Shown here: in pieces, positions 5,820 to 35,819 of the stretch
Layout of the letters: the number at the start of each line of letters is the position of its first letter
Numbering within the stretch: position 1 is the stretch's first letter
Assembly: GCF_000424325.1 (NCBI RefSeq)
Contig: NZ_AUJR01000042.1
Span: 1-44,729, forward strand
Length of the DNA: 44,729 bases
From: [Clostridium] clostridioforme AGR2157
GTDB taxonomy: Bacteria > Bacillota > Clostridia > Lachnospirales > Lachnospiraceae
Direction: 5' to 3'
The notes under the pieces: generated by a model
Database searches by the model: none
The model's input: only the letters and a program-made list of their open reading frames with translations
What the model was told of the DNA's origin: nothing
Program-made: the position numbers and the translations under genes

Positions 5820-6653
5820 TCATTTGTCTCGCATGGCTCTGTTGATATTCAAAGTCATGTAAGCAATTTCCTCCATGTTGGGCTGTACCTTCATCTGCTG
5901 TAAGATGAATTTTGCAATTTTAGCGCTGCAATCATATGCCGCCGGAAATTTTGTACAAATCAGCGCGCAGATCTCCTCATCCTCACCATGGTGCATCTGA
6001 TTGGTGATGATTCTTCGCAGCATATGTTTGATATAGACCATCAGTTCCTCAAACGCAAATGACCTGTGGTCCAGATCTTTTTGGAAATGATACTGGATGA
6101 TATTGATGATATCTTTTGTCATGACAACGATGTCGTAGCCCCTTGAATTGAAATTCCCCATCTCCGCATTGACGATGTGGATGGCGATAAATCCTGCTTC
6201 GTCTTCCGAGAGGACTATGTTCAGCTTTTCCACAATAATACTGAGGGCTTCGATTCCCACAGCGTATTCTTCCGGATAGTAATTCTTGATTTCCCACAGA
6301 AGCGCATTGGGCAATTCAATGCCCTGATTTTTCCGCTCCACAGCACAGCAAAGGTGCTCTGTCAGTCCGATGTGAATGCTGCGATCCAGCCTGTGACGCA
6401 GCTTTTTGTGGGCAATGCTGATAATCTCCTCTGCCGTCTGAATGTACTCATAGGGAATCCCAGCCGCAATTCCGGCAAATTTGGATACTGCTTCTGAGTC
6501 CTCCAGGTGAAACTTCTTCTGGATTATGCTTTCATCAAACACGCCTTCGGTTTTGTAGTGAAAACCGATTCCGGTTCCGATCCAGATGGTTTCCCGCCCG
6601 CTCTCATCCAATCCACTGACCACATTGTTATTAATGATCTTTGTTATCTCCAT
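5820..6653 (-). CDS. licT: BglG/LicT-family transcription antiterminator
   Basis: A 277-residue RNA-binding antiterminator. The N-terminal CAT domain (MEITKIINNNVVSG) is followed by two PRD domains with conserved histidines (HIGLTEHL and EAGFIAIHIVNAE in PRD1; HRSFAFEE region and a later one in PRD2). I chose ATG 6653: it has GGGA eight bases upstream, whereas the in-frame TTG at 6677 lies inside the T-run of the upstream terminator. Family knowledge: the dimer binds the RAT hairpin in the nascent leader and prevents the overlapping terminator when PTS sugar is available. Both elements are visible at 6671-6760, so the gene controls its own operon. Confidence 0.95.
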   Translation of the reverse strand: MEITKIINNNVVSGLDESGRETIWIGTGIGFHYKTEGVFDESIIQKKFHLEDSEAVSKFAGIAAGIPYEYIQTAEEIISIAHKKLRHRLDRSIHIGLTEHLCCAVERKNQGIELPNALLWEIKNYYPEEYAVGIEALSIIVEKLNIVLSEDEAGFIAIHIVNAEMGNFNSRGYDIVVMTKDIINIIQYHFQKDLDHRSFAFEELMVYIKHMLRRIITNQMHHGEDEEICALICTKFPAAYDCSAKIAKFILQQMKVQPNMEEIAYMTLNINRAMRDK

Positions 6654-6670
6654 AACCAGTCCCTTTTCCC

Positions 6671-6740
6671 AAAACAAAAGACCGGCATTATCCCAGACTG
6701 CTGCATTGTATATACAACAGAATAGGATAACCCAGTCTTG
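6671..6740 (-). terminator. Leader terminator controlled by LicT
   Basis: On the minus strand AGACTGGGTTATCC (from 6739) pairs, with small bulges, with GGATAATGCCGGTCT, followed by TTTTGTTTT (ending at 6671). The 5' arm overlaps the RAT, so the two structures exclude each other. The licT start lies 18 bases further on. Confidence 0.85.
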
Positions 6741-6760
6741 CCTGCTTTACCAGTGACACC
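6732..6760 (-). promoter_or_regulatory. Ribonucleic antiterminator (RAT) site
   Basis: On the minus strand the leader reads GGTGTCACTG, then GTAAA, then GCAGGCAAGAC. This closely follows the BglG/LicT RAT pattern GGNTTGTTACTG...GCAGGCAAAACC, and its 3' end overlaps the terminator stem. Confidence 0.88.
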
Positions 6761-6799
6761 TTACGGCTATACCTGACCTTTTGTTTAAATTATATAGTA

Positions 6800-6828
6800 A
6801 TATTACCATGCGCGGAGGGGTTAGTCAA
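6800..6828 (-). promoter_or_regulatory. Sigma-A promoter of the beta-glucoside operon
   Basis: On the minus strand TTGACT (6828-6823) is separated by exactly 17 bases from TAATAT (6805-6800). The RAT begins about 40 bases downstream. Confidence 0.8.
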
Positions 6829-6914
6829 CTTGTTTTTTGGCAATTTTACTTTTTCGTGGTAGACTTCCCCCGTTTTTTTGACTTATGTTACATGTCTTCA
6901 AATTTTGTAAACCC

Positions 6915-7377
6915 GACTCTACTTCCACTGTTTTTTCAGTAGCAATTTCAAGGAGTTTCAGAGATTTCCCCTCCAGGCCGATGATCTTGTGACCTGGCAT
7001 CATCACAGGATTATGAGGGGTCAGCTGTTTCATGATATCCATAAAGATAACCGGGTACATTCCTGCTCCAAACTGGGGAAGCATATCTACAATGCGCACT
7101 TCGGACGTCATGTTATGATTATAGAGATACTCTGCTGTTTCAAGGCCTGTAAGTCCCCCGCCGATTACAGTGACACGGCCATCTGTCATTTTGCACCGAT
7201 CAGTATATCGGAAGACATGATCACATTGTCGCTGTCCAGTCCTGGCAGCGGCGGACAGATCGGTTCAGCACCACCTGCGAGGAATACTGCCATCGGATTA
7301 TATTTTTCAACCGTTTCCACAGTAGCGTTTGTGTTTAAGAGAACTTCTACGCCTGCTTCTTTCAGTTCTTTGGACAT
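6915..7377 (-). pseudogene. Fragment of an OYE-type NADH:flavin oxidoreductase (C-terminal NAD/FAD part)
   Basis: Two overlapping frames encode consecutive parts of the pyridine-nucleotide domain of an Old-yellow-enzyme/2-enoate-reductase-type flavoprotein. The first (7377-7186) carries LKEAGVEVLLNTNATVE and FLAGGAEPICPPLPG. The second (7189 downwards) carries the dinucleotide motif VTVIGGGLTGLETAEYL. A frameshift at GCAAAATGACAG (about 7186-7190) separates them. The N-terminal TIM barrel and iron-sulfur region are missing upstream, and homology fades after TEKTVEVES. The remnant cannot be functional. Related intact enzymes act on enoates or bile-acid intermediates, but the substrate here is unknown. 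Confidence 0.8.
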
Positions 7378-7436
7378 GGTATCAACTATGCTGTTTGGTT
7401 ATACAATAAACCCAACCAAGAGAAAGGCGGTATTTA

Positions 7437-7573
7437 TGGACAATCAAAAGTTTGGACAGTTCATTCTCTCTCTTAGGAAAGAGAAAGGTTGGACGCAACT
7501 TGAGCTAGCTGAAAAACTCAATGTAACCGATAAGGCAGTATCAAAATGGGAACGTGGAGTTTCCCATAGTTAA
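7437..7573 (+). pseudogene. Truncated XRE-family HTH regulator
   Basis: From ATG 7437 the product begins MDNQKFGQFILSLRKEKGWT and continues with a typical helix-turn-helix (QLELAEKLNVTDKAVSKWERG), then ends after VSHS. Family members go on with the rest of the HTH fold and a C-terminal domain. The break falls where IS66-type sequence begins, so this is an N-terminal stub. It abuts the oxidoreductase fragment on the opposite strand. Confidence 0.75.
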
Positions 7574-7590
7574 AGATACGTAAGTAGGTA

Positions 7591-7851
7591 ATGATGGAGG
7601 TGATACCAATAAATACGAATGACAATGCAACCTCAAAGGCTGACCCTTGGGCAGACCGGATCCATGCTTTTCAGGAAAGCGGTTTATCCCGCAAAGAATG
7701 GTGTCAGCAGAATGGAATCCCACAGTCTACACTGGGTTACTGGATCCGAAAGCTCCAGTCAGAAGCCGCTGAGACAGAAAGTGCTTCTGATCCTATTGAA
7801 GTTGCTGCGGACTGTCCAGCCAGATATCCTTATCCCCAATTAGTAAAATAA
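7591..7851 (+). pseudogene. Fragment of an IS66-family accessory gene (TnpA-like)
   Basis: The frame contains WADRIHAFQESGLSRKEWC followed by QQNGIPQSTLGYWIRKLQSE, the pattern of the small IS66 accessory protein that precedes tnpB and the DDE transposase. After SASDPI the sequence leaves the family and reads into unrelated codons to a stop. No tnpB or tnpC follows. It is a remnant of an insertion sequence rather than an active element. Confidence 0.75.
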
Positions 7852-7990
7852 TTTCATGGAATGGCTTCTCCTGCTTGCCGGAACGAATTTTCTCATAGTT
7901 ATCGTCATTCCGGCGGTCATTTCTGGTCTGCTTCTCATTGTACCGGGCAAGTGCTTTATCAATCGTGATATACGTCCTTGATATTTTCAT
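7800..7990 (-). pseudogene. Fragment of a Mob/Pre-type plasmid recombination (relaxase) protein
   Basis: The minus strand encodes ALARYNEKQTRNDRRNDD followed by NYEKIRSGKQEKPFHEII. From memory this matches an N-terminal segment of Mob_Pre plasmid recombination proteins (pattern YNxKQxRxDRxIxxYxxxIxxSKQEKxFxE). Only about 55 residues are left; the catalytic remainder is absent, and the 3' side runs into the IS66 fragment. Its start codon has no good ribosome site. The family match is by eye only. Confidence 0.55.
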
Positions 7991-8801
7991 TGCAGTATTC
8001 CACGTTCAGACATACCATGGACGGAAAGACCTAATCCAGGGACGATATCATATGGTACAGGATCCAGTATGAAAAAGGCGACCCTTATGAACGGCATGTA
8101 GACGGTGAGCTGATGCACAACATAGCAGTTGTCTTTGATTTGAAAGGCGGAACACTGAATGATTCTACGGCCCCCTGCTGACCTACAGCCTGCAGAAATA
8201 TGGGGTGATAACAAACAACCTGATTCCTTCACTGGAGGGAAGCGGATTCAGCGGCTGGAAGGTCGTGGAATCCTCGGATGCAGGTTTTAAACCAGATCAG
8301 TTATATCAGGCATCAGAAATCAACAACCATGAGTTTACCGGCAATGTTGCCTTTGAAGCGGTTTGGGATATCAATATGTATACTGTAAATGTGGAGATGG
8401 TAGACAAGGAAGTTCCGGCGAATGTGCTTGACAGTAAGCTCTGGAGCAGGTGCCCTTTGGGACGGGATCCGGAAGCGGACGGCAGGCTGAACGGACTGAT
8501 TCCTGAATCAATCGACGGGACAGACGGAAACCATTATATCTATACCGGAATGATGTACAAGTCCTATGAGCCTGTACAGGGTGTCAGGAAAAATGGAACC
8601 GCGGTAACACTCCGGATATCAGAGGAAACAGCGGTGAGGTTCTGGCGGAAGCGGCGGCTCAGGAGGCGGATCCGGCAGAAGGTATGTATCCGCAGATGCA
8701 GGTCCAGGAGTAGTTACCCTGGAGGAAACCCTGTTCCGCTGGCCGAGGCCCCGGAGACAGGTATGGCAGTTATTGATGACGGATTAAATAAGCCTCATTA
8801 A
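7990..8801 (+). pseudogene. Decayed LPxTG-type repeat surface protein (3' remnant)
   Basis: Consecutive frames spell the end of an InlB-like repeat protein: DDIIWYRIQYEKGDPYE and VFDLKGGTLNDST, a stop/frameshift near 8170, then LTYSLQKYG...GWKVVESSDAG...VAFEAVW, a further repeat, a shift near 8634 into a Gly/Ser linker (SGGSGGSGGGSGRRYV), and another shift near 8727 into PVPLAEAPETG. APETG resembles a decayed sorting motif, and the downstream hydrophobic anchor is missing. The linker, Pro-rich and sorting order mirrors the gene at 1-2153, so this is a degraded paralogue. There are at least three disruptions, plus a stop near 8022. Confidence 0.8.
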
Positions 8802-8847
8802 ATAAAGCATAATAAATAAGGCATAATATAAACCATAAAGTGAGGGG

Positions 8848-8887
8848 ACACAGCAGTATGGAGGAATTCTGTACTGCTGTGTTTTTT
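8848..8887 (+). terminator. Rho-independent terminator after the surface-protein remnant
   Basis: ACACAGCAGTA (8848-8858) pairs perfectly with TACTGCTGTGT (8872-8882), followed by TTTTT. It probably served the now broken surface gene. Confidence 0.88.
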
Positions 8888-8923
8888 ATGAAATTTTAAT
8901 AATTTTTTCACAATCAGACGTGG

Positions 8924-8952
8924 TGGAAATACCTTTGTATTTGGGATATAAT
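8924..8952 (+). promoter_or_regulatory. Putative promoter of the SDR gene
   Basis: A perfect TATAAT at 8947-8952 lies 17 bases after TGGAAA (8924-8929, four of six matches to TTGACA). AGGAGG (8970-8975 region) and ATG 8985 follow. Confidence 0.6.
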
Positions 8953-8984
8953 AACCCCACCAAATAACAGGAGGCAATTCATAC

Positions 8985-9809
8985 ATGAAACAATTTTATC
9001 CCAACCGTTTTAAAGATAAGGTAATCATTCTGACTGGCGCGGCCAGGGGTATCGGTGAGGCCACAGCCATCCGGGCGGCGAAGGAAGGAGCGAAGCTGGT
9101 GCTGGCTGACCGGCTGAAGGAGGAGGGAGAGCGTGTGCTCAAAGCTGTCAGGGCAGAAGGAGGCACAGCCATTTTCCTGAATCTGGATCTGTCCGCGGAG
9201 GAGCATGCAGAACAGATGGTGGATGCGGCAGTGAAGACTTATGGACATCTGGACATTGCCATTAACAACGCGGGCGTCATGGGAAATCCCAGTCCGCTCC
9301 ATGAGTTAGAGCAGGAGCAGATGGACTACACCATGGCGAACAACTTTTATTCCGTATTTTTCTGCTGCAAGCACGAAATCAGGGAATTCATGAAGGAAGG
9401 GAATGGGGGCGTCATTGTCAACAATGCATCCATTGCCGGGCTCACAGGCCTTCCGGGCAATCCTGCCTATGTGGCGTCCAAACATGCGGTCAACGGACTG
9501 ACTAAGAACCTGGCCCTTGATTACGCCAGATACGGAATCCGCATAAACTCAGTCAATCCCGCAGGCACCACCACGCCCATGGTAGCCGAGGCATATGAAT
9601 ATGTGAAGAACCATAGAGAGGCAGCCATCAAAGCCGGTATGGACCCTGCAAAGGCCCAGTCCATGGCCGGACAGAAGCTCACCTCCATGCTGGAACGGGA
9701 GGCCACGGCAGAGGAGCAGGCGGCATCCATCCTGTTTTTGGTATCAGATGACGCCACCCACATGACAGGGGCCACGGTACAGACAGACGGAGGATGGACG
9801 TCCTTTTAG
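8985..9809 (+). CDS. SDR-family NAD(P)-dependent oxidoreductase
   Basis: A 274-residue classical short-chain dehydrogenase. It has the cofactor motif TGAARGIG (17-24), NNAG (94-97), catalytic S149, and YxxxK as Y162/K166 in AYVASKHAVNGL. D42 (VLADR) after the second strand suggests NAD preference. The C-terminal VQTDGGWTSF is usual for the family. It would interconvert an alcohol and a ketone; substrate unknown. A good AGGAGG site and its own promoter precede it. A zinc alcohol dehydrogenase follows after 96 bases. Confidence 0.9.
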   Translation: MKQFYPNRFKDKVIILTGAARGIGEATAIRAAKEGAKLVLADRLKEEGERVLKAVRAEGGTAIFLNLDLSAEEHAEQMVDAAVKTYGHLDIAINNAGVMGNPSPLHELEQEQMDYTMANNFYSVFFCCKHEIREFMKEGNGGVIVNNASIAGLTGLPGNPAYVASKHAVNGLTKNLALDYARYGIRINSVNPAGTTTPMVAEAYEYVKNHREAAIKAGMDPAKAQSMAGQKLTSMLEREATAEEQAASILFLVSDDATHMTGATVQTDGGWTSF

Positions 9810-9826
9810 GAATGCCTGATATATGC

Positions 9827-9832
9827 TATAAT
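9827..9832 (+). promoter_or_regulatory. Possible extended -10 promoter for the alcohol dehydrogenase
   Basis: TGCTATAAT gives an extended -10 (TG-N-TATAAT) just after the SDR stop. No convincing -35 is seen. A TA-rich run (9836-9860) follows, then a GGAGG site and ATG 9906. Confidence 0.45.
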
Positions 9833-9905
9833 ATCCTTATATTTATATATATATATGATAAGATGATATTGGAGAAAACAGCAGCAAATCGGAGGTATAG
9901 TAAAG

Positions 9906-11066
9906 ATGCAAAGCGATATGCAAACTCAGGTGTCCCAATCCCAGGCGGCCCAGTCTCAGGCGACCCAATCCCCGGTTCCTCAGTCCCCGGCTCCCCAGTC
10001 CCGGACTCCCCAGCCCAAGACAATGAAAGCCGCCGTCTATAAAGAAAATGGTATCATAACCCTGGAAGACCGGCCTGTCCCCAGGCTGAAAGATCCGCAG
10101 GATGCCATTATAAAGGTGACCCTTACCACCATCTGTTCCAGCGATATCCATATTAAGAACGGCGCTGTCCCAAGGGCTGTGCCGGGAACCATACTGGGAC
10201 ATGAGTTTGTGGGCATAGTGGAGCAGACCGGGGAGGCGGTAAGAAGGTTTAAGCCCGGAGACAGGGTGTCTGTGAATGTGGAGACATTTTGCGGGGAGTG
10301 CTATTTCTGTAAGCGGGGCTATGTCAACAACTGTACCCATGAGCACGGAGGATGGGCGCTGGGGTGCAGGATTGACGGCGGTCAGGCCGAGTATGTAAGG
10401 GTTCCGTTTGCTGACAACGGACTAACGAGGATACCCGGTGAAGTGACGGACGAGGCGGCGCTGTTTACAGGCGACATCCTTTCCACCGGTTACTGGGGGG
10501 CTTCCCTGGCGGAAATCAAACCGGCTGATACGGTAGCTGTTATTGGCGCAGGCCCTACCGGGCTGTGTACCCTGATGTGCGCAAGGCTTTACGGTCCCGG
10601 AATGATCATTGCCATTGATACGTCTGATGAACGGCTGGAGCTGGCTAAGGATCAGGGACTGGCGGATGTCGGCCTCAACCCGCTAAAGCAGGATGTGGAA
10701 CAGGAGATAAGGAAGCTGACCCTTGGACGCGGCGCGGATGCCGTATTGGAAGTGGCAGGAGGCAGGGATACCTTCCAGATGGCATGGAAGATTGCCAGGC
10801 CCAATGCAGTGGTCTGTGTAGTGGCCTTATATGAAGAACCGCAGATACTCCCCCTCCCGGACATGTACGGGAAGAACCTGGTTTTTAAGACAGGAGGAGT
10901 GGACGCTTCCTGCTGTGAGGAAATCATGAAACTGATAAAGGCCGGAAAACTGGATACCAGCTGTCTGATTACCCACAGGGCAAAGCTTGAAAACATTATG
11001 GAAGCCTATGATGTGTTTGAGAATAAGAGGGACCATGTGATAAAGTACGCAATTGAGGTATCATAA
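9906..11066 (+). CDS. Zinc-dependent MDR alcohol dehydrogenase with Gln/Pro/Ser-rich N-terminal extension
   Basis: A 386-residue medium-chain dehydrogenase. The conserved enzyme begins at MKAAVYKENG (residue 40). Catalytic zinc ligands are C77, H99 and E100 (GHEFVG), plus probably D190; structural-zinc cysteines are C129, C132, C135 and C143; the NAD fold carries GAGPTG (214-219). Preceding it is a 39-residue extension built from degenerate SQ/SP(A/V)PQ units. ATG 9906 has GGAGG ten bases upstream, while ATG 10023 has no ribosome site, so the extension is probably translated. It may work with the SDR in alcohol/ketone metabolism; substrate unknown. Confidence 0.88.
   Translation: MQSDMQTQVSQSQAAQSQATQSPVPQSPAPQSRTPQPKTMKAAVYKENGIITLEDRPVPRLKDPQDAIIKVTLTTICSSDIHIKNGAVPRAVPGTILGHEFVGIVEQTGEAVRRFKPGDRVSVNVETFCGECYFCKRGYVNNCTHEHGGWALGCRIDGGQAEYVRVPFADNGLTRIPGEVTDEAALFTGDILSTGYWGASLAEIKPADTVAVIGAGPTGLCTLMCARLYGPGMIIAIDTSDERLELAKDQGLADVGLNPLKQDVEQEIRKLTLGRGADAVLEVAGGRDTFQMAWKIARPNAVVCVVALYEEPQILPLPDMYGKNLVFKTGGVDASCCEEIMKLIKAGKLDTSCLITHRAKLENIMEAYDVFENKRDHVIKYAIEVS
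9940..10017 (+). repeat. Degenerate short tandem repeat encoding SQ/SP-rich extension
   Basis: Repeated units of about 12 to 15 bases of the type CCCAGTCYCRG or CCCCGGYTCC encode QSQAAQSQATQSPVPQSPAPQ. The composition differs sharply from the dehydrogenase that follows. Confidence 0.7.
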
Positions 11067-11129
11067 GGCTTATGGACGTTCAGAGTAATTTGAGGACATT
11101 TACAGATATATAAGAAAGAAGGAATGAGT

Positions 11130-11732
11130 ATGGGCAGGAACTGTTGTATCACCATTGAGCGTCAGTACGGAAGCGGAGGAAGGGAGGTGGCCCGCATCCT
11201 GTCGGAGCGCCTGGGGATTCCCTGTTATGGGAGGGAGCTTCTGGCAGTGACGGCGGCAGACAATGGAATCAGCATCGAGGAACTGAAAAAGCTGGATGAA
11301 AAACGGACGGGAAGCCTGCTTCATGATTTGGTGCTGTATGCCTTCCGGTTCCAGAATTACAATAAGATGCAGGAGCCCTTTGATATTAATAAGGAGGTAT
11401 CTGACACCATCCGCAGGCTGGCCCGGAAGGGACCATGTATCTTTATCGGAAGATGCGCTGATTTTGCCCTGGACGGAGAATGCGACGTACTTAAACTGTT
11501 TATCTACGCTTCATCCATGGAGAAGCGCAAACGCCGTATATGCGAGGTGGATGACATAGCCTTTGAGAAGGCGGAGGAAGAATTACAGAAGAGGGACAGC
11601 CAGAGAAGTGACTATTATCACTATTTTACCGGAAAAAACTGGGGTGATATGGAAAATTATGATGCCTGTCTGAATACCTCTGTATTGGGATATGAGGGCT
11701 GCGCGGACCTGATTATGAAAATGATGGAATGA
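11130..11732 (+). CDS. Cytidylate-kinase-like family protein
   Basis: About 200 residues. The N-terminus CCITIERQYGSGGREVARIL is the P-loop region of the cytidylate-kinase-like family (AAA_26 type); GPCIFIGRCADFAL in the middle and the acidic C-terminal half also fit. Real CMP kinases phosphorylate CMP; the cellular role of this paralogous family is not established. Two ATGs are possible. AGAAGG lies seven bases before 11130 but only one base before 11124, so I prefer 11130 (MGRNCC). It sits 63 bases after the alcohol dehydrogenase, possibly co-transcribed, and is followed by a terminator. Confidence 0.87.
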   Translation: MGRNCCITIERQYGSGGREVARILSERLGIPCYGRELLAVTAADNGISIEELKKLDEKRTGSLLHDLVLYAFRFQNYNKMQEPFDINKEVSDTIRRLARKGPCIFIGRCADFALDGECDVLKLFIYASSMEKRKRRICEVDDIAFEKAEEELQKRDSQRSDYYHYFTGKNWGDMENYDACLNTSVLGYEGCADLIMKMME

Positions 11733-11797
11733 GATTGTTGAATGTCATCAAAGGAAGTATAAAAACATTATATGAAAACGCTGCGAAAACGCCGTGA

Positions 11798-11856
11798 TAA
11801 TGCCGTGAATCAGCCGGATTCCAAACCAGGAAACCAGCTTCTTCACGGCATTTTTC
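11798..11856 (+). terminator. Rho-independent terminator
   Basis: AATGCCGTGAA (11798-11808) pairs with TTCACGGCATT (11842-11852), followed by TTTCTTCC. The loop is long, about 33 bases. Confidence 0.7.
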
Positions 11857-11945
11857 TTCCTCCGCGCCCTGTCAGAAGAACCATCCCGTCAAATAAACGG
11901 AGAAATAATAAAAGTTGAGCCGTAATTTTGTGAAAAAAAAACGGG

Positions 11946-11974
11946 TTGATTTTCATTTGCAAAATGCATATAAT
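11946..11974 (+). promoter_or_regulatory. Promoter of the MarR-efflux operon with nearby operator-like palindrome
   Basis: TTGATT (11946-11951), a 17-base spacer and TATAAT (11969-11974). Just downstream, ACAAC-A-GTTGT (11986-11996) is a perfect short palindrome within AT-rich DNA, a plausible MarR operator. The link to the regulator is inferred. Confidence 0.7.
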
Positions 11975-12060
11975 ATTTGTCAAACACAACAGTTGTTAAA
12001 TACATATGATAGCCGCACAAAGCATTCCTTAGCAGTGTCTGCGGCAGCACCCGCAAGGAG

Positions 12061-12504
12061 GTGAGTACCATACAGGAAATAGCCACCATGATAGAAAAGA
12101 GCAAACGAAGGTTTCTGTGCATTAAATTCAAGGCCTGCGGCCTTTCCTTTTCCGAGGGAATCGCGCTACTGGTCATAGGCTACAGCAAATACAGCAATCA
12201 GGATACCATTTCCAGCCTGTCCGGAATTGATAAGTACCAGACAGCCAAGGTATTGGCTGCCATGGAGGATCGGGGATATATCAGGAGGGAGATTAACCCT
12301 GGGAACAAGCGTGAAAAGCTGGTTTGCCTGTCAGAAAAAGGAAAAGAGGCAGCTAATACACTGAAGGACATTATGGACCAGTGGGAGAAAATCATCTTTG
12401 CCGGAATTACGACCCAGGAGGAACGGGCCCTGGAACAGATTATGTGCAAAATCGTCGGAAATGTAAGGGAGTATGAAAGAAATATTGGAAGGGAGAAACT
12501 GTAA
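12061..12504 (+). CDS. MarR-family transcriptional regulator
   Basis: Up to 147 residues with a winged helix: DTISSLSGIDKYQTAKVLAA is the recognition region and GYIRREINPGNKREKLV the wing. It probably represses the following efflux genes and responds to a small molecule. The start is uncertain: AAGGAGG (12055-12061) overlaps the GTG at 12061, which is too close, and would be best placed for the non-standard ATA codon at 12070; the first ATG is 12088. The HTH core is intact under any choice. The stop lies five bases before the membrane-fusion gene. Confidence 0.85.
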   Translation: MSTIQEIATMIEKSKRRFLCIKFKACGLSFSEGIALLVIGYSKYSNQDTISSLSGIDKYQTAKVLAAMEDRGYIRREINPGNKREKLVCLSEKGKEAANTLKDIMDQWEKIIFAGITTQEERALEQIMCKIVGNVREYERNIGREKL

Positions 12505-12509
12505 TAACA

Positions 12510-13574
12510 ATGAAACTGGCAAAATCCAAGAAGAAAATCATAGGGGCAGCGGCGGCTGTTATTTTATGCGCCATTGTCCTGGTGCTCATCTTCGGCCATG
12601 TGACCGGGGATGACCTGTTATTTAAGAATAAGAAAAATCTGGTGGTGCAGTCCTATGTGACCATGGATGAGAGCAACATCAACGCGCTGACAGGAGGCCA
12701 GATTAAGGATGTCCTGGTGGAGGAAGGGGATCTGGTGACGAAAGGCCAGGAGCTGGTCCGTCTGGACAGTGATACCCTGATGGCCCAGAGGGAACAGGCC
12801 CAGGCAGCCCTGGCCCAGGCGCAGGCATCTTATCAGAGCCTGTTAAACGGCGCCACAGAGGAACAGATGAAGCAGCTGCAGCTGGCGGTCCAGATTGCCC
12901 AGGCAAACCTGGAAAATGCCCAGGCATCCTATACCAGGATGGAGGCGGATTATCAGAGGACCTTAGCGCTGGTTCCGGCGGGAGCCGTGTCCCAGTCCTC
13001 CGTGGATGCGCAGAAGGCAGCCCTGGCTTCTGCCAAGGCAGCCCTTGACAGCTCACGTTCCAATCTGGAGATTTCCCGGAGCAAGCTTTCCGAGGCCCAG
13101 AACGGAGCCACGCCGGAACAGATTGCCCAGGCCCAGGCCGGGGTGGACCAGGCCAAGGCTGCCCTGAAACAGATTGACACCACCTTGGATAAATGTGTCC
13201 TCACCTCCCCTGTGGACGGTCTGGTGACAACGGTAAATGTCAAGGCCGGTGATGTGGTGTCCTCCGGACTTCCCTCCGTTGTGGTTGCGGACATTTATAC
13301 CCCCTATATCACATGTGATGTGGATGAAATGAAGCTTCCCCGGGTAAAGCTGGACCAGGAGGTGGATATCTCCCTGGCAGCCCTGGGAAAGGATACATAT
13401 AAGGGAAAAGTGGTGCGAATCAATAAAGAAGCGGATTTTGCCACCAAGAAGGCGTCCAATGAAGCTGACTGGGATATCCTGACCTACGGAATCAAGGTAA
13501 CCTTTGACGACCTGACGGGATTGCAGGATGAGCTGCGTTCCGGTATGACAGCCTATGTTGACTTTGGAAAGTGA
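12510..13574 (+). CDS. HlyD/EmrA-type membrane fusion (efflux adaptor) protein
   Basis: A 354-residue adaptor. It has one N-terminal membrane segment (about 9-29), a first half-lipoyl part (GGQIKDVLVEEGDLVTKGQE), a long Ala/Gln-rich coiled-coil hairpin (about 85-215; repeated QAxAALAQAQ-like heptads), a second half-lipoyl part (CVLTSPVDGLVTTVNVKAGD) and a beta-barrel domain. In Gram-positive bacteria such proteins bridge ABC-2 permeases across the wall or pass substrate at the membrane face. It lies in an operon with MarR (5-base gap) and two permeases (11-base gap). Confidence 0.9.
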   Translation: MKLAKSKKKIIGAAAAVILCAIVLVLIFGHVTGDDLLFKNKKNLVVQSYVTMDESNINALTGGQIKDVLVEEGDLVTKGQELVRLDSDTLMAQREQAQAALAQAQASYQSLLNGATEEQMKQLQLAVQIAQANLENAQASYTRMEADYQRTLALVPAGAVSQSSVDAQKAALASAKAALDSSRSNLEISRSKLSEAQNGATPEQIAQAQAGVDQAKAALKQIDTTLDKCVLTSPVDGLVTTVNVKAGDVVSSGLPSVVVADIYTPYITCDVDEMKLPRVKLDQEVDISLAALGKDTYKGKVVRINKEADFATKKASNEADWDILTYGIKVTFDDLTGLQDELRSGMTAYVDFGK

Positions 13575-27818: not shown

Positions 27819-27873
27819 AGAACCAGAGATAAAAGTCAGACAATGGATTATGAAGAAGGACAGGTGGCTGAGA

Positions 27874-29379
27874 ATGAACGATACAATTGTTTCCATGGAG
27901 AATATCTGTAAGAGTTTTCCGGGAGTCAAGGCATTGGACCATGTGCATTTTGAACTGCGCTCAGGAGAAGTCATGGCGCTTCTGGGAGAAAATGGTGCGG
28001 GAAAAAGTACACTGATGAAGGTGCTCAGCGGTGTCTACACAAGGGATGAAGGGAAAGTGGAGATATTCGGCAGGGAGTACGGGGACATGAACCCGAAGCA
28101 GGCCCAGGAAGCCGGAGTGGCAATCATCCATCAGGAACTGAACATGTGCAGGCATCTGTCGGTGACGGAAAACATGTTCCTGGGGCGTGAGAAGGTAAAG
28201 GGTATGGTCCTGTCAAATAAGGAGATGGAGGAGGAAGCCAGAAAGATTCTGGAGGATCTGAAAATCGATTTGGACCCGCATCAGGTGGTGGGGGACCTGC
28301 CTGTGTCCAAGCAGCAGATGGTGGAGATAGCCAAGGCACTATCCACCCATGCGGAAATCCTGATTATGGATGAACCCACTTCCGCCCTGACAGCCAGGGA
28401 GATAGAGGATTTATTCCGAATAATCCACAACCTGAAGGAAAAGGGATGCGGCATCGTGTACATTTCCCACCGGCTGGAGGAGCTTCAGTCCATTGCGGAC
28501 CGTGTGACCATTATGCGGGACGGTCAGTACATAACCTCCATGAATTTCCGGGACACCACCCTGGATGAGATAATTGCCAACATGGTGGGACGTGAAATTA
28601 AGAAAAAGTTCCCGCGCGTTTCCTGCAAAAAAGGAAAGAAAGTACTGGAAGTAAAGAACCTGAACGCAGGCAGGATGGTGCGGGATGTGGATTTCTCCCT
28701 GTATGAAGGGGAAATCGTGGGATTTGCAGGGCTGATGGGAGCGGGCAGGACCGAGACCACCAGGGCCATATTCGGCATTGATCCCAAGGAGAGCGGACAG
28801 ATTTTCCTGGACGGAAAAGAGGTGGCGATTCACAAGCCCGAGGATGCCATAAAGGCAGGAATCGTGCTGGCCCCTGAGGACAGGAAAAAGGATGGACTCT
28901 GTACAAAACTGAGTATCCGGCATAATATAGCCCTGCCAAACCTGGATTTGCTCTGCAACAAGATGGGCGTGGTAAGCCGGTCCAGGGAAGATGAGATGTG
29001 CCGGAAGGTGGTGGCTGACTTAAAGGTCAAAACCCCCAATGTGGATGTGAATGCAGGCAATCTGTCCGGCGGCAACCAGCAGAAGGTGGTTGTTGGAAAA
29101 TGGCTGGCCCGTAATTCCAGGGTGGTAATATTTGATGAGCCGACCAGGGGAATTGATGTGGCTGCCAAAGTAGAAATATATAATCTGATGAACCAGCTAA
29201 AGCAGCAGGGAATTGCAGTCATGTTCGTGTCCTCGGAGATGCCGGAGGTCATGGGAATCGCTGACAGAATCGTCGTCATGTGTGACGGCCGTATTACCGG
29301 TGAGCTGATGGCAGAGGAGGCCACCCAGAACAGCATCCTGACCCTGGCAACCAGATTTGAGAAGAAGATTGACTTATAA
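27874..29379 (+). CDS. Sugar ABC importer double ATPase (RbsA/MglA/XylG-like)
   Basis: 501 residues from ATG 27874 (AGGTGG upstream; the longer frame to 27703 has no family match). Two fused ATPase domains. The first has GENGAGKST (38-46), the signature-region LPVSKQQMVEIAKAL and Walker B ILIMDEPTSALT. The second has GLMGAGRTE, LSGGNQQKVVVGKWLA and VIFDEPTRGID. The Arg in the second Walker A is normal for this family. It energises uptake of a pentose, hexose or similar compound through the permease encoded 16 bases on. Compare the inactive relative at 34299-35819. Confidence 0.94.
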   Translation: MNDTIVSMENICKSFPGVKALDHVHFELRSGEVMALLGENGAGKSTLMKVLSGVYTRDEGKVEIFGREYGDMNPKQAQEAGVAIIHQELNMCRHLSVTENMFLGREKVKGMVLSNKEMEEEARKILEDLKIDLDPHQVVGDLPVSKQQMVEIAKALSTHAEILIMDEPTSALTAREIEDLFRIIHNLKEKGCGIVYISHRLEELQSIADRVTIMRDGQYITSMNFRDTTLDEIIANMVGREIKKKFPRVSCKKGKKVLEVKNLNAGRMVRDVDFSLYEGEIVGFAGLMGAGRTETTRAIFGIDPKESGQIFLDGKEVAIHKPEDAIKAGIVLAPEDRKKDGLCTKLSIRHNIALPNLDLLCNKMGVVSRSREDEMCRKVVADLKVKTPNVDVNAGNLSGGNQQKVVVGKWLARNSRVVIFDEPTRGIDVAAKVEIYNLMNQLKQQGIAVMFVSSEMPEVMGIADRIVVMCDGRITGELMAEEATQNSILTLATRFEKKIDL

Positions 29380-29395: not shown

Positions 29396-30427
29396 ATGAA
29401 TCACAAGAATCAAGGGGCCCTCAGACAGTTGTTGAATATAAGGGGCATGAGAGGGGCTTTGACTGCCTTTGCGGGACTCATTGTCATTTACATAGCATTC
29501 GGGGCAATTAACCCCACTGTATTTTCAGGACAAAATGTTACAAACCTGTTCCGTTCCATGTCAAAGTACCTGATTATCGGTATCGGTCAGAGCTACGTGC
29601 TCATAACAGGCAACATTGATTTGTCCATTGGTTCCGTGGTGGGCATGAGCGCCATGATATCAGCAACCCTCATGACCCATGGGGTTAATCCCATGGCCGC
29701 CATACTAATTACACTGGTCTGCTGCCTGGCCATCGGCGTGGTAAACGGTATTCTGGTGGGAAAGTTCCAGCTTCCTCCGTTCATAGCAACCCTGGGCACC
29801 ATGTTCGTGGCCAGAGGCGTGGCTTACATGGTAAATGGGAACCGCAACACGGATGCCATCAGTTCCGGCATTGGCAAGGAAGCGGCTGATAAGTTCCAGG
29901 CATTTTTTTACTATGGAAAAACGGCTGGGGTGTTTAATACCTTCTGGATTGCCCTGGTACTGTTTATCGCATTCTTTTTCCTGCTCTCCAAGACCAGGAC
30001 AGGCCGCCATATCTACGCCATTGGTTCCAATGTGGAGGCAGCCAAGCTCTCCGGAGTCAGCGTGGTGGCGACAGTCACAAAGACATATCTGGTCAGTGCC
30101 TTCTGTTCCTTTGTGGTAGGTCTGATTCTCTGCGGCCAGGCCAATATGGGCAATATGGAAGCAGGCAATATGTATGAGATGTATGCAGTGGCAGCCGGCG
30201 TCATCGGCGGTATCTCGCCACTGGGGGGAACGGGAATCCTGCTGGGTACCTTTGCAGGGGCGGCTGTATGGCAGACCCTTGAAAATGGACTCAACATGAT
30301 TGGGGTCCAGGTAGGAATCCAGCGCCTTGTCATTGGTATCATCGTGGTATTTGCAGTACTTCTGGACGTGGTGCTCCGCAAGGGAATGCTCATAAGGAAA
30401 CGTCCGGCAGCGGAAAAAAAGGTTTAG
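29396..30427 (+). CDS. Sugar ABC importer permease (RbsC/MglC-like)
   Basis: 343 residues from ATG 29396, which follows GAGGAGAAAGG; the frame's earlier start at 29357 lies in the ATPase gene. Eight to ten membrane segments with the family landmarks GQSYVLITGNIDLSIGSVVG near the N-terminus and YAIGSNVEAAKLSGV and GGISPLGGTG later. It forms the membrane channel for the double ATPase and the lipoprotein encoded next. Confidence 0.94.
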   Translation: MNHKNQGALRQLLNIRGMRGALTAFAGLIVIYIAFGAINPTVFSGQNVTNLFRSMSKYLIIGIGQSYVLITGNIDLSIGSVVGMSAMISATLMTHGVNPMAAILITLVCCLAIGVVNGILVGKFQLPPFIATLGTMFVARGVAYMVNGNRNTDAISSGIGKEAADKFQAFFYYGKTAGVFNTFWIALVLFIAFFFLLSKTRTGRHIYAIGSNVEAAKLSGVSVVATVTKTYLVSAFCSFVVGLILCGQANMGNMEAGNMYEMYAVAAGVIGGISPLGGTGILLGTFAGAAVWQTLENGLNMIGVQVGIQRLVIGIIVVFAVLLDVVLRKGMLIRKRPAAEKKV

Positions 30428-30473: not shown

Positions 30474-30527
30474 TATAAAATGAATGTGAAAGTGAACATG
30501 CGTGTACGCAAAAAAGGAGGAAATGCA

Positions 30528-31499
30528 ATGAAAAAAATGTTAGCACTGGCTTGTTCCCTGGGCCTGGCCGCGTCCCTTATTACCGGGTGCGGCAGCAAGA
30601 CTGAGGTTGTATCAGCCACCACCGCAGCGCAGTCATCGGCAGAAGCAGCAAAGACAGAAGCGCCGGCAGCTGGTTCCGACACCATGATTGCCCTGATTAC
30701 CATGGATTCCATTGACCAGCACTGGGTGACCCTGAACGAGGGCGCGCAGAAGGCTGCAAAGGAGCTGGGTGTAACGGTCCAGTTTATGGCTCCCAACACC
30801 AAGGATGACGCGCAGCAGATTGAATGTGTGAACAATGCGGTATCCGCAGGCGCCAAGGCCATCATCGTGGCAGCCAACGGTCCGGACGCCATCTCATCCG
30901 CATTAAAGGAGGCGCAGTCCTCAGGCGTAAAAATCGTATATGTAGACTCCCCGGCCAACGTGGACGCAGAGGCAACCTTCTCCACGGATAATAAGGCGGC
31001 GGGCAAGACAGCAGGCGGGGAAATGCTTAAGGCCCTGAAGGATGCAGGGGTGACATCCGGTTCCATCGGCATCATCAATGTAAATGCAGCAACCGATTCC
31101 TGTGTAATGCGTGAAGAAGGATTCCGTTCCGCATTTGAGGGCAGCGGATTCACCCTGTTAGAGACACAGTACGGCGAAGGCGACGCAGCCAAGTCGCAGA
31201 GCATTGCGGAAAACTATATCACCCAGGGCGTTGTGGGCATCTTCGGCTGCAACGAGGGTTCCACCACAGGGGCCGGCAACGCAATCAAGGCTTCCGGCAA
31301 AGACGGAATCATCGGAGTTGGCTTTGACAAGTCCGATGCAATCCTCGGCCTGATTGACGACGGATACCTGCTGTGCACCATGGCCCAGAACCCGGACGTT
31401 ATGGGCTACAAGGGTGTGGAAGCATGTGTGAAGGCTCTGGAAGGCGAATCCTTAGGAGGAACTGTGACGGATACAGGAGTGTCTGTATTGAAGAAGTAA
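30528..31499 (+). CDS. Sugar-binding lipoprotein of ABC importer (periplasmic-binding-protein type I)
   Basis: 323 residues from ATG 30528, preceded by AAGGAGG; the frame upstream to 30480 has no ribosome site. Signal peptide with lipobox LITGC (C21), an Ala/Ser/Thr linker, then a RbsB-type fold: IALITMDSIDQHW, VNNAVSAGAKAIIVAANGPD, KIVYVDSPAN, GIFGCNEG and IGVGFDKSD. It captures the ligand outside the membrane for the permease encoded upstream. The conserved binding residues suggest a sugar, autoinducer-2-like or purine-like ligand; it cannot be narrowed further. Confidence 0.93.
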   Translation: MKKMLALACSLGLAASLITGCGSKTEVVSATTAAQSSAEAAKTEAPAAGSDTMIALITMDSIDQHWVTLNEGAQKAAKELGVTVQFMAPNTKDDAQQIECVNNAVSAGAKAIIVAANGPDAISSALKEAQSSGVKIVYVDSPANVDAEATFSTDNKAAGKTAGGEMLKALKDAGVTSGSIGIINVNAATDSCVMREEGFRSAFEGSGFTLLETQYGEGDAAKSQSIAENYITQGVVGIFGCNEGSTTGAGNAIKASGKDGIIGVGFDKSDAILGLIDDGYLLCTMAQNPDVMGYKGVEACVKALEGESLGGTVTDTGVSVLKK

Positions 31500-31641: not shown

Positions 31642-33228
31642 ATGTTAAAGGTAATAATAGCGGACGATGAGCGCCTGATATGCAGGCTGGTGCAGATGCT
31701 GGCGGACTGGGACTCACTGGGCATGGAGGTGGTGGCCATGGCGGAAAACGGCCTGGAGGCGCTGGAACTGGTGCAGTCTAAGCGTCCCGACATACTGATT
31801 ACGGACATCCGTATGCCTGGCTGCGACGGGCTGGAGCTGATACGGAGCGCGAAACAAATCATGCCGGACCTGGAAGTGGTGATCATCAGCGGCTATGCCC
31901 ATTTTGAGTATGCCCAGAGCGCCATGCGGTACGGGGCCGGCTACTATCTGTTAAAGCCCATCAAACAGGCGGAGCTGATGGAGACACTGGAAAAAATCCG
32001 GGAAAAATGTGAATCCAGGCTGGAGACAATGGCATCCATCAGCAGGCAGCATCAGAACAGCCAGAAGGATTTGAGACGCATCCGGGAGAGTCTGGTAAAG
32101 GATTTGATGACGACCCCTACGGAGCTGACAGCGGAAGCCCTGAGGGACATCTACCATGTGGAGACATACGGCGGCATATACCAGGTGTTCATGGTAAAAA
32201 TAGACGGCAGCACTGACCAGGTCAGCCGTTCCGGCCTGGAAGTCATGCAGGAGAAAATAAAGGACATCTTCAGTAACTCCCTGGCCCCGGTCTGCCATGA
32301 CATGCTGCTGTATTTCCAGTCCTGTACCGGCTGCGGCGTCATGAATTACGACCCGGCTAAAAAGGATGAGGTGCGCAGAGGGCTGAGGGAATGCCTGAAT
32401 CACCTGGAAGTAAAGAGAAGTCTGCTGGGCCCCTTTGAATTTTCCGTCTCCCTGGGAATTGCCGTGGATGCGCCGGAGAAAATGCCCCTATCCCTGGAAT
32501 CAGCCAGGAACGCCATGACAGAGCGCCTGATTCAGGGAACCGGAAGGCTGCTGGATACAGTGCCGCCGGGCTCCGGCATAGAAAAGCAGAACCTGCTGGA
32601 CAAATACGTAAAGGTGATGGAGCACACCGTGGACAGCCTGAGCACAGCAGAGGCAGGGGAGGCCTGCCGTATGCTGGAGACAGAGGCCCTGGGGCTGGAT
32701 CATATATGCGGCAGGGAGATACTGGAGCTGGTGCTGTCTGCAGGCCGCCTCTTCATCGCCCGTACAGCCCTGAGCAATGTGGAGGAAATCCAGCAGGAAT
32801 TTGTGAACAGCTGCAGCCAGTGCAGGACAGCGGGAGAGCTCTTTGGCCAGCTGGCCCGAATCCAGGAACGGCTGCTGTCTGAGGCCAGGGAGCTTCGAAG
32901 CAGTGAGGCCGCAAGACCGATTCGCATTGCCAAACAATATGTGATGCAGCACTTTGACGAACCCATTACCCTGGAGACCGTGTGCGAGGATATCGGTTTC
33001 AGCGTCAATTATTTCAGTATGCTGTTCAAGCGTGAGACAGGGGAAGGATTTGCAAAATACCTTACCAGGGTACGGATTGAGGAAGCCAAGACACTGCTTC
33101 GCGAGACCGGTATTCCCATTGCGGAGATATGTGAGATGGTGGGGTACAGCGACAGGAAGCATTTTACCCATACCTTCCACAAGGCCACGGGACTGAATCC
33201 GGTGGAGTACCGGAAGCTGTATGGATAA
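31642..33228 (+). CDS. YesN-type response regulator (receiver plus AraC HTH)
   Basis: 528 residues. The N-terminal receiver has D8/D9, phospho-acceptor D55 in ILITDIRMPG and the conserved Lys in YYLLKPIKQ. A long middle region (about 125-410) follows, then a C-terminal AraC double HTH (IRIAKQYVMQHFDEPITLET...GFSVNYFSMLFKRETGEGF...ICEMVGYSDRKHFTHTFHKA). It probably activates the preceding sugar importer operon when phosphorylated by the kinase encoded 24 bases later. The start has only a GGGGGAG-like site. Confidence 0.93.
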   Translation: MLKVIIADDERLICRLVQMLADWDSLGMEVVAMAENGLEALELVQSKRPDILITDIRMPGCDGLELIRSAKQIMPDLEVVIISGYAHFEYAQSAMRYGAGYYLLKPIKQAELMETLEKIREKCESRLETMASISRQHQNSQKDLRRIRESLVKDLMTTPTELTAEALRDIYHVETYGGIYQVFMVKIDGSTDQVSRSGLEVMQEKIKDIFSNSLAPVCHDMLLYFQSCTGCGVMNYDPAKKDEVRRGLRECLNHLEVKRSLLGPFEFSVSLGIAVDAPEKMPLSLESARNAMTERLIQGTGRLLDTVPPGSGIEKQNLLDKYVKVMEHTVDSLSTAEAGEACRMLETEALGLDHICGREILELVLSAGRLFIARTALSNVEEIQQEFVNSCSQCRTAGELFGQLARIQERLLSEARELRSSEAARPIRIAKQYVMQHFDEPITLETVCEDIGFSVNYFSMLFKRETGEGFAKYLTRVRIEEAKTLLRETGIPIAEICEMVGYSDRKHFTHTFHKATGLNPVEYRKLYG

Positions 33229-33252: not shown

Positions 33253-34302
33253 ATGGAACAAAACAGGTTCAGATATCTTTCAGTGCGGGTCATGGCGCTG
33301 CTTATTGCCGCTCTGTGTTTAACACTGTTTCTGACCGTGGCCTGCTTGGTCCAGGCGTTCCGGGGAAATGCACCCTTCTGGCCCGGCGTCATGGGCGCTG
33401 CGCTGCTGCTCCTTTCCATATGGGCCTTCAGTACATGGATACTCAGGCCCTACCTCCAATTGGAACGGACCATGCACCTGTTCCTGGAGGGATATACCAC
33501 CACTGATCTGACTGACTTGTGCCAGGTGGTCCCGACTCCCATGGTGTACCGGATGCTGGAGCACATGATGAAAATTATGGATTCATCGGAACTGCTTAAG
33601 CTTAACAAGCGGCAGGCCCAGTATCTGGCGCTCCAGAACCAGATTAACCCCCATTTCCTGTACAATACCCTGGAGAGCATCCGCAGCGAGGCTTTGATTG
33701 CAGGGCTTACCAGCGTAGCGGATATGACGGAGGCCCTGGCCACATTTTTCCGCTACACCATCAGCAAGGTGGAAAACCTGGTGTCCGTGGAGGAGGAGTT
33801 GGAGAACTGCAGGACCTATTTCCGGATACAGCAGTACCGGTTCGGTTCCCGTCTGAGCCTGTCCATGGAATGCGATCCGGAAGACCGGGAGGAGATATAC
33901 GGCAGCCGGCTGCCGAAGCTGACCATGCAGCCTATCCTGGAGAACAGCATCATCCATGGAACGGAGTGCAAGATAGGCACAGGTCACCTGACCATCCATC
34001 TGGAGCGGAGCGGAAAACGGCTGCTGATACGCATCTCTGACGACGGGGTGGGGATGGATGAGGAGGTATTGTCCAGGATGAACGAGCGGCTGGGAAAGAG
34101 CGGTCAGGCATTTGCGTCCCAGGGTTCAGAGACCCGGGGCGGCATAGCCCTTGTAAATGTAAACAACCGGATTCACCTGCTCTTTGGAGAGGAATACGGG
34201 CTTCATGTATTCTCCATGCCGGGAGTTGGGACAGATGTGGAAATCAACCTGCCTGCCATTACCAATGACAGGGACTTAAAGAACAAAGAGGCATTAAAAT
34301 GA
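33253..34302 (+). CDS. YesM/LytS-type sensor histidine kinase lacking an extracellular sensor
   Basis: 349 residues, far shorter than the ~580 of YesM. Two membrane segments (about 11-36 and 42-64) are joined by a loop of only a few residues, so no external ligand domain exists. Phospho-acceptor H134 is in QINPHFLYNTLE, and the ATPase domain has LTMQPILENSIIHG (N box) and ISDDGVGMDE and GGIALVNVNNRI (G boxes). A classic HAMP domain is not obvious. Its stop overlaps the start of the degenerate ABC ATPase gene (ATGA). It probably receives its signal from another membrane protein. Confidence 0.92.
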   Translation: MEQNRFRYLSVRVMALLIAALCLTLFLTVACLVQAFRGNAPFWPGVMGAALLLLSIWAFSTWILRPYLQLERTMHLFLEGYTTTDLTDLCQVVPTPMVYRMLEHMMKIMDSSELLKLNKRQAQYLALQNQINPHFLYNTLESIRSEALIAGLTSVADMTEALATFFRYTISKVENLVSVEEELENCRTYFRIQQYRFGSRLSLSMECDPEDREEIYGSRLPKLTMQPILENSIIHGTECKIGTGHLTIHLERSGKRLLIRISDDGVGMDEEVLSRMNERLGKSGQAFASQGSETRGGIALVNVNNRIHLLFGEEYGLHVFSMPGVGTDVEINLPAITNDRDLKNKEALK

Positions 34303-35819
34303 GGGAAGAGATTCTGCGCATGGAGCGGGTGACTTACCGGGAACAGGGAGTGGCCCTGCTGGAGAATTTCAGCATGACAATCTGGGCCGGCGAGATACTG
34401 GGCCTGGTGCCGGTAAACCACCTGGGCCTGTCCGCCCTGGTGCGTCTGCTGCAGCAAAACCTTCCCCTGCATTACGGCTATGTGTATTATAAGGAAAAGC
34501 TGGTAAACGACTGGCGATTTCCATGTACAGGCGTGAACCATACCATCATGAACCTGACCGCCATGAATCAAACCACCATGAACCGAATCAGCGTGATTCG
34601 CAACCGGAGCTGCCTGGCGGAGGGACTGACTGTGGCCGACAACATTTTCGTGCTCCGTCCCGGATTCAAGAAGCGGCTGATGCAGCCTCATATACTGAGG
34701 GAACAGTTGAAGCCCTTCATGGAGGATATTGGAGTGGAGATTCCGGCCGACGCCTATGTGGAGGAGCTGACCAACTTTGAGAGGTTTGTGGTGGAGCTGC
34801 TAAAGGCAGTTGTGGCAGGCAATCATCTGGTGGTGCTGGAGGACATCAGCACCTTCATCAGCGACGCAGAGCTGGAGCAGCTGAGCGGAATCCTGCACCA
34901 CTATGCAAAACAGGGCATGTCCTTTCTCTACATAGCCGCTCATTTCGAGGAAGCGCGCCAGGTATGCGGGCGGACGGCCCTCATGCTGAACGGACAGATT
35001 ATAAAGTGCTTCCAGGCAAAGGACAAAGCGCCGGACCCATTTTTCCTGCACTGTACCGAGGACTTTGACCGTCATGTGCGGGAGCAGATGGACCAGAGGC
35101 CAAGACCAGAGGAAAACCGGATTGTGTTTCAGGCAGAGGGAGAACTTAGGTTTTCAGTGGCAAGGGGAGAATGTCTGGTGATGCAGGATTTGGATAACTG
35201 CATGATTCAGGAACTGATTCCGGTCCTGTCCGGTGAAGGAAAGCCGTCAGCGGGACAGATATTCATTGAAGGAACGCCCCTGGGAGGGAAAAATGACCGC
35301 CGCATCGCAGTTATCCAGGAACTGCCGGTACATTCCATGCTGTTTTCCAACCTGAGCTATCTGGATAATCTTTGTTTTACTCTGGACCACCGGGTCAGGG
35401 GCGTGTGGGGAAGCAAGCGCATTAAGAAAAGCCTGCGCCAGGAATATGCAGGACTTTTGGGAGAGGATGTATTTGACCTGCCTGTGGACCGTCTGACGGA
35501 ATGGCAGAAATACGACCTCATATATACCCGCATATACCTTCAGAATCCCAAAATCGTGTTCTGTGTGCAGCCCTTTAAGAGCGCGGAGGTAGCCCTGCGC
35601 ATCCATATCATGGAGCTGCTGGAACGGTTTTTAAATAAGGGGATTCCTGTGGTGATTATGGCGGTGAACCTGGCAGATTCTCTGGCTCTGGCGGACCGGC
35701 TCCTGCGGGTGCGCCGGGGCGGGCAGGTACAGGAGTATCATAGGGATGAGTTTGCGGCATTGCCGGTGAATACGCCATGGCTGTATTTGTATCAGGAGAA
35801 GTACAGACAAGAGTGGTAA
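34299..35819 (+). CDS. Inactive double ABC ATPase homologue (RbsA/MglA-like pseudoenzyme), coupled to the histidine kinase
   Basis: 506 residues, the same length as the active double ATPase at 27874 and collinear with it, but without any nucleotide-binding motif. Where Walker A should be it has LGLVPVNHLGLSALVRLL; signature and Walker B become LTNFERFVVELLKAV and LVVLEDISTFIS. In the second half LTEWQKYDLIYTRIYL and IVFCVQPFKS replace LSGGNQQ and DEPTRGID. The frame is intact and ribosome-coupled to the kinase, so this is selected divergence rather than decay. ATP hydrolysis is not expected; a regulatory or scaffold role at a sugar permease is inferred. Confidence 0.85.
   Translation: MREEILRMERVTYREQGVALLENFSMTIWAGEILGLVPVNHLGLSALVRLLQQNLPLHYGYVYYKEKLVNDWRFPCTGVNHTIMNLTAMNQTTMNRISVIRNRSCLAEGLTVADNIFVLRPGFKKRLMQPHILREQLKPFMEDIGVEIPADAYVEELTNFERFVVELLKAVVAGNHLVVLEDISTFISDAELEQLSGILHHYAKQGMSFLYIAAHFEEARQVCGRTALMLNGQIIKCFQAKDKAPDPFFLHCTEDFDRHVREQMDQRPRPEENRIVFQAEGELRFSVARGECLVMQDLDNCMIQELIPVLSGEGKPSAGQIFIEGTPLGGKNDRRIAVIQELPVHSMLFSNLSYLDNLCFTLDHRVRGVWGSKRIKKSLRQEYAGLLGEDVFDLPVDRLTEWQKYDLIYTRIYLQNPKIVFCVQPFKSAEVALRIHIMELLERFLNKGIPVVIMAVNLADSLALADRLLRVRRGGQVQEYHRDEFAALPVNTPWLYLYQEKYRQEW

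Follow-up and report, generated by a model that had tools for sequence, protein, structure and literature searches.

Several bacterial signalling systems that have already been described place a histidine kinase beside an ABC transporter, in some cases with a third protein added. Kinases of the class to which BceS belongs are known as intramembrane-sensing kinases, and the third proteins PhoU and GraX are not ABC proteins. In the BceAB-BceS-BceR system the kinase BceS senses the cycling of the transporter BceAB, according to PMC10314905. For the PstSCAB-PhoU-PhoR system, PMC5775613 describes PhoR as having no significant periplasmic domain and the adaptor PhoU as touching both the ATPase PstB and PhoR. 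GraX is described as an auxiliary protein of the two-component system GraSR. In kinases of the YesM/YesN type, the typical arrangement includes a large extracytoplasmic sensor.

The locus analysed in the present work lies in a stretch of 44,729 nucleotides from [Clostridium] clostridioforme AGR2157 (contig NZ_AUJR01000042.1), referred to here as the window. It encodes, directly after a short histidine kinase, a catalytically dead ABC protein with two nucleotide-binding domains (NBDs) in tandem, which is here called PSE. The window kinase has no extracytoplasmic sensor domain, as is the case for Bce-type kinases, and the PSE system resembles the Bce system in that the kinase would be under ABC transporter control; in the Bce system, however, the live ATPase does the work, while the PSE system has a separate dead copy. 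The transporter of the PSE system is also unlike BceAB: it imports, using a BPD_transp_2 permease together with a binding protein, and the permease of the locus is not of the BceAB (export) type. As in PstSCAB-PhoU-PhoR, the kinase in our proposal reads an ABC transporter through an adaptor, but PSE is itself derived in form from the motor, of which it is a copy, with an ABC fold and no Pfam PhoU match. Because PSE is without the defining parts of the Bce and PhoU families, it is not placed in either. What it has in common with GraX-GraSR is that a third protein accompanies both a two-component system and an ABC transporter. The window pair has the PF06580 kinase and the receiver-AraC regulator found in YesM/YesN-like systems, but the window kinase is short and has no large extracytoplasmic sensor, and the gene order is regulator-kinase-PSE. 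PSE shares with the RbsA/MglA-type (CUT2) ATPases its tandem-NBD architecture, its fold and its linkage to a BPD_transp_2 permease and a Peripla_BP_4 binding protein, but it has lost their catalytic motifs and falls on a separate branch.

Transporter-coupled two-component signalling is a known principle. No description of a dedicated, full-length dead tandem ABC protein as a conserved third component was found among the titles and abstract openings listed by searches of open PMC papers. The reading preferred here, to which we assign a probability of roughly 0.6, is that PSE adds a third element to the signalling system: seated on the permease, it would relay the permease's state to the kinase, which lacks an outside sensor.

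Results

Organization of the window locus

The genes of this locus all lie on the forward strand. An intact RbsA-type ATPase (27862..29379, in a reading frame open from 27703) is followed by a BPD_transp_2 permease (29396..30427), a sugar-type substrate-binding protein with a Peripla_BP_4 domain (30480..31499), a response regulator of 528 aa with a receiver and an AraC-type HTH (31642..33228), a histidine kinase of 349 aa with PF06580 and HATPase_c domains and two membrane helices (33253..34302), and PSE, of 506 aa (34299..35819). The binding protein of the window has one domain in 339 aa, which could be real or could reflect a collapsed assembly; in two relatives, L051 (12034-13872) and L052 (4697-6580), the corresponding gene encodes a single chain (612 and 627 aa) in which the binding-protein domain occurs twice, nearly identical, and a binding-protein ORF of 611-641 aa is present in 10 of 41 loci (two of these ORFs were read). 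Elsewhere in the window, at 117-2153, there is a repetitive 678-aa ORF with an LPKTG-like sorting signal at its end, which probably encodes a cell-wall-anchored surface protein.

The preliminary description of this DNA had proposed that PSE is an intact, full-length relative of the RbsA-type ATPases whose start codon overlaps the stop codon of the kinase, and each of these points holds. All 506 codons are open, the overlap is the ATGA at 34299..34302, and PSE aligns at 22% identity with the live ATPase encoded in its own gene group. Family models, this alignment and the predicted fold all identify PSE as a tandem-NBD ABC protein, and a single-chain structure prediction gives the ABC fold seen in RbsA-type proteins. 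A short M/N/T-rich insertion at PSE residues 79-94 (window 34533-34580), VNHTIMNLTAMNQTTM, occurs also in L051 and is absent or shorter in the nine other aligned relatives; it is a region of low confidence in the structure prediction.

The same description had stated that both Walker A, both signature and both Walker B sites are replaced. This stands for both Walker A sites, both Walker B sites and the second-half signature; the first-half signature says little, because that of the live ATPase is itself non-canonical. The degenerate first-half Walker A (PVNHLGLS) lies at 34410..34433 and the first-half Walker B (LVVLED) at 34827..34844; in the second half, the site of the lost Walker A is at 35184..35210, that of the lost signature (LTEWQ) at 35493..35507, and the degenerate Walker B (IVFCVQP) at 35553..35573. 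The Walker A, Walker B and second-half signature motifs that characterize a CUT2/RbsA-type ATPase are thus absent from the window protein.

A kinase without a sensor

In the model of the window kinase, a helix at residues 9-37 is joined by a five-residue turn to a second helix at residues 43-79, and since only about five residues connect the two, the kinase has no outside sensor. In a hydropathy analysis of the linked kinases (46 rows, one of them a duplicate, from the loci fetched before the last 12), at least two hydrophobic windows are found in 43 rows, one in L058, and none in L061 or in a fragment from L101. The L061 kinase ORF (8163-8936, 257 aa), in which no hydrophobic segment was found, is perhaps soluble or has its start called too late. 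The catalytic motifs are retained: the histidine and the ATP-binding motifs are invariant among 35 aligned kinases, and the catalytic PHF(L/I) motif is present in 56/56 kinases of at least 200 aa.

The 19 other PF06580-type kinases in the window genome are ORFs of 380-636 aa, and no ABC match lies behind them in the flanks (up to about 1.5 kb). Similarly, no kinase match is found in flanks of up to about 1.5 kb around 18 RbsA-type ATPases of this genome (L002-L018, L020), 17 of which keep Walker A.

A family of kinase-linked dead ABC proteins

Searches for relatives of PSE yielded a family of 57 loci, the window included, in which the order regulator-kinase-ABC protein is kept on one strand. 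Of these, 46 belong to the window's family and 11 to seven other families of its phylum (five in the same order, one in the same class and five in the same phylum). The frames are long and open, with 18-95% identity to the window PSE where compared, and among 98 genomes related to that of the window, PSE matches range from 95% identity downward.

The loci were collected by profile searches of 397 genomes of the window's family (169 of them matching at E 1e-50, a count in which dead and live proteins are not separated), 344 genomes of its order (9 matching at E 1e-75) and 398 of its phylum (7 matching at E 1e-75). A total of 62 regions (14 + 36 + 12) were fetched, and in 56 of them genes for a response regulator, a short kinase and an ABC protein follow one another. 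Regions L062, L063, L064, L127 and L128, in which the ATPase is intact and has no kinase directly upstream, were left out, and two rows were dropped: L129, whose contig begins inside the gene, and L021, the one relative found in a scan of genome contigs, which is the same stretch as L052. L053 was included although its contig ends before any regulator is visible, as was L101, although its kinase is two ORFs; L172 was counted by hand, because the start of its ORF is called too early. The L051 regulator (10304-11891) and the L101 kinase (7779-8590) are apparently each split into two ORFs, by mutation or sequencing error.

Matches in the window's family were fetched down to about 230 bits, and lower-scoring ones were mostly left; since the linked protein of L122, which was met as the neighbour of an intact match, scores only 157 bits, more loci must exist beyond the 57. 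The search profile (A1) was built from dead proteins, so kinase-linked intact ABC proteins could be missed.

The start/stop overlap, which had been taken as a sign of coupling between kinase and PSE, is common but not universal: 20 of the 56 measured start-to-stop gaps are -4 nt, and the full range is -83 to +154, although premature start calls account for some of the negative values.

Motif loss and conservation

The loss of the motifs extends across the family. The second-half Walker A, signature and Walker B are kept in none of the 57 linked proteins, and in 50 of them none of the five scored Walker and signature motifs is kept, whereas all five are present in 57/57 live comparison ATPases (mostly neighbours of the linked proteins and not a random sample). 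The remnants lie in the first half: the Walker B1 aspartate survives in 14/57, a Walker B ending in DE in one (L112), a lysine at the Walker A1 column in 20/56, and a full Walker A in six (L061, L119, L122, L124, L125 and L126).

The information content of 15 segments, named before the values were seen, was compared between 39 core dead proteins and the 57 live ones. Only the two segments that follow the Q-loops, of which the first (34608..34667) is presumed to dock on the permease and the second lies at 35334..35387, are higher in the core dead set than in the live set (2.80 vs 2.62 and 2.90 vs 2.49 bits); over all 57 dead proteins they are slightly below it (2.25 vs 2.62 and 2.41 vs 2.49). 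In ABC ATPases, the segment after the Q-loop faces the coupling helix of the permease. An unbiased scan of 463 windows again finds gains after the Q-loops, but the top window, at residues 56-73, lies outside both of these segments.

These data also bear on the proposal that PSE senses a cytoplasmic ligand, such as a sugar, sugar phosphate or nucleotide, in a remodelled nucleotide site, and signals its presence to the kinase. The Walker A and lysine remnants described above speak in favour of this, as does the conservation of new residues in other parts of the protein. Both Walker A segments, however, are among the least conserved in the dead set, at 0.57 of the live value, and ligand sensing at this site must be regarded as improbable.

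Selection and ancestry

The dN/dS of PSE, computed with an in-house Nei-Gojobori script, is 0.129 against L051 (95% identical), 0.109 against L052 (77%) and 0.241 against L098, the L052 and L098 values being rough because dS exceeds 1 for both. Against L051 and L052 respectively, the kinase gives 0.193 and 0.099 and the live ATPase 0.054 and 0.038. The PSE values of 0.13 and 0.11 against these two orthologues point to purifying selection.

In a tree of 90 rows (from the loci fetched ahead of the last 12), 45 linked proteins and 45 live ATPases fall on opposite sides of one 100%-supported branch; the tree is a quick one, without bootstraps and with many long branches, and the L061-L126 join in it is flagged as unsafe. 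Because linked and live proteins occupy the two sides of one branch, the reading of PSE as a recent copy of the neighbouring ATPase is rejected. The six proteins that keep a full first-half Walker A adjoin the live ATPases, several of them on long branches, and this position suggests stages of motif loss; it is possible that they represent such stages or, alternatively, a branch that still binds ATP.

The missing catalytic motifs are also what would be expected if PSE were a decaying pseudogene or a sequencing artefact. Against this stand the purifying selection (dN/dS 0.11-0.13), the long open frames at 57 loci and the single shared lineage in the tree, and the probability of such an origin is negligible. 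The earlier suggestion that PSE is under selection for a non-catalytic role is, by contrast, well supported by the 57 linked loci, the low dN/dS and the single 100% branch.

Linkage to transporter and kinase

Within 14 kb and the fetched stretch, 50 of the 57 loci have an intact RbsA-type ATPase nearby and 48 have a permease; a binding protein was found in 41, using the window protein as a weak probe. Several of the seven loci in which no live ATPase was found are close to contig ends. Recurrent families in the flanks include ROK kinases (12 loci), D-lyxose isomerase (4), SIS (4) and Dak (5). By identity to that of the window, the permeases form a group of 15 at 28-35% and a group of 33, the window included, at 54-100%.

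L111 is the only locus with a permease but without an intact RbsA-type ATPase. Its regulator, kinase, PSE, binding protein and permease are consecutive (6492-12681), and no live RbsA-type ATPase was found in its 18.5 kb stretch, which also holds a C39-type exporter and a 265-aa ORF with an ABC match; an ATPase elsewhere in the genome could serve the permease. No relatives of this arrangement were found among 61 genomes (5 matched), the matches besides the L111 genome itself (G136) being 26-29% identical.

The evolutionary distances of PSE, taken over the 46 loci with all parts, correlate with those of the kinase (0.83), the regulator (0.85), the live ATPase (0.81) and the permease (0.78). These correlations are not independent, because the genes share one operon and one history. 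The correlation between kinase and live ATPase is 0.62 and becomes -0.26 given PSE, and that between kinase and permease given PSE is -0.18 (bootstrap -0.32 to -0.06). With all others held fixed, PSE retains partial correlations with the kinase (0.39), the regulator (0.37) and the live ATPase (0.33); that with the permease vanishes (-0.03) when live ATPase, kinase and regulator are fixed, the live ATPase and permease distances being themselves correlated at 0.95.

When PSE is divided into 40-residue segments, the signal for the permease, with kinase and regulator held fixed, reaches its maximum at residues 101-160 (0.57, 0.60). It is also high at 181-240 (0.55, 0.56) and 441-480 (0.50), where it equals that of the presumed docking segment, is near zero at 241-340 and is small in the second-half segment 341-380 (0.24). 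The kinase signal peaks at residues 401-440 (0.76). In an exploratory reading, these values fit a bridge in which the first half of PSE would be turned more to the transporter and the second half more to the kinase.

The strongest competitor of the preferred reading is that PSE modulates the kinase alone, as a scaffold or brake, without contact with the transporter, so that its ABC shape would reflect only ancestry. The kinase lies directly before PSE in 57/57 loci (split in one), which is the closest and most constant linkage; the correlation of PSE with the kinase given the transporter is 0.80, as against 0.58 with the permease given kinase and regulator; the transporters vary, with permeases either 28-35% or 54-99% identical to that of the window; and GraX offers a precedent for an auxiliary protein of a two-component system. 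Against this reading stand the transporter genes near most copies of PSE, a permease-linked signal that is not zero, and the conservation of the post-Q segments in the core family, and we regard it as rather unlikely. Linkage, distance correlations and conservation together give indirect support to the view that PSE is tied to both the kinase and the transporter, although some results, such as the vanishing partial correlation with the permease, weigh against it.

Discussion

The occurrence of a dead motor beside a sensor-less kinase in many relatives suggests that PSE probably informs the kinase of the activity of the transporter. According to this proposal, PSE would be a dedicated dead ABC subunit that adds a third member to the two-component system. 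With the outline of the RbsA motor preserved, it could still bind the sugar permease from the cytoplasmic side, by itself or by taking turns with the live ATPase. There it would touch the adjacent kinase, which consists only of DHp and ATP-binding domains attached to a membrane anchor. The docking of a sugar-loaded binding protein would change the permease, PSE would carry this change to the kinase, and the kinase would phosphorylate the AraC-type regulator. PSE would thus take the part of an adaptor, with its ABC shape placing it at the seat of the motor, instead of the live ATPase or perhaps beside it. Inferred in this scheme are the contacts that PSE makes with its two partners, the permease and the kinase, the way in which the signal runs, and the control of the transporter genes by the regulator.

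A stronger form of the proposal, which we advance only tentatively and consider somewhat doubtful, is that the binding protein, the permease and the dead motor together constitute a sugar receptor that drives the sensor-less kinase. Since the dead motor would occupy the seat of the live one, the same permease could either import or report. If such an importer-derived receptor exists, then the L111 operon would be its receptor-only form.

Kinases able to read a transporter's state have been described before. If the proposed role of PSE is correct, the route by which the information passes from transporter to kinase would include a separable signalling part that can be tested, and this would explain how sensor-less kinases in the Bacillota can respond to sugars. 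The dead family would also serve as a warning that some genes which appear to encode sugar ABC ATPases do not encode motors.
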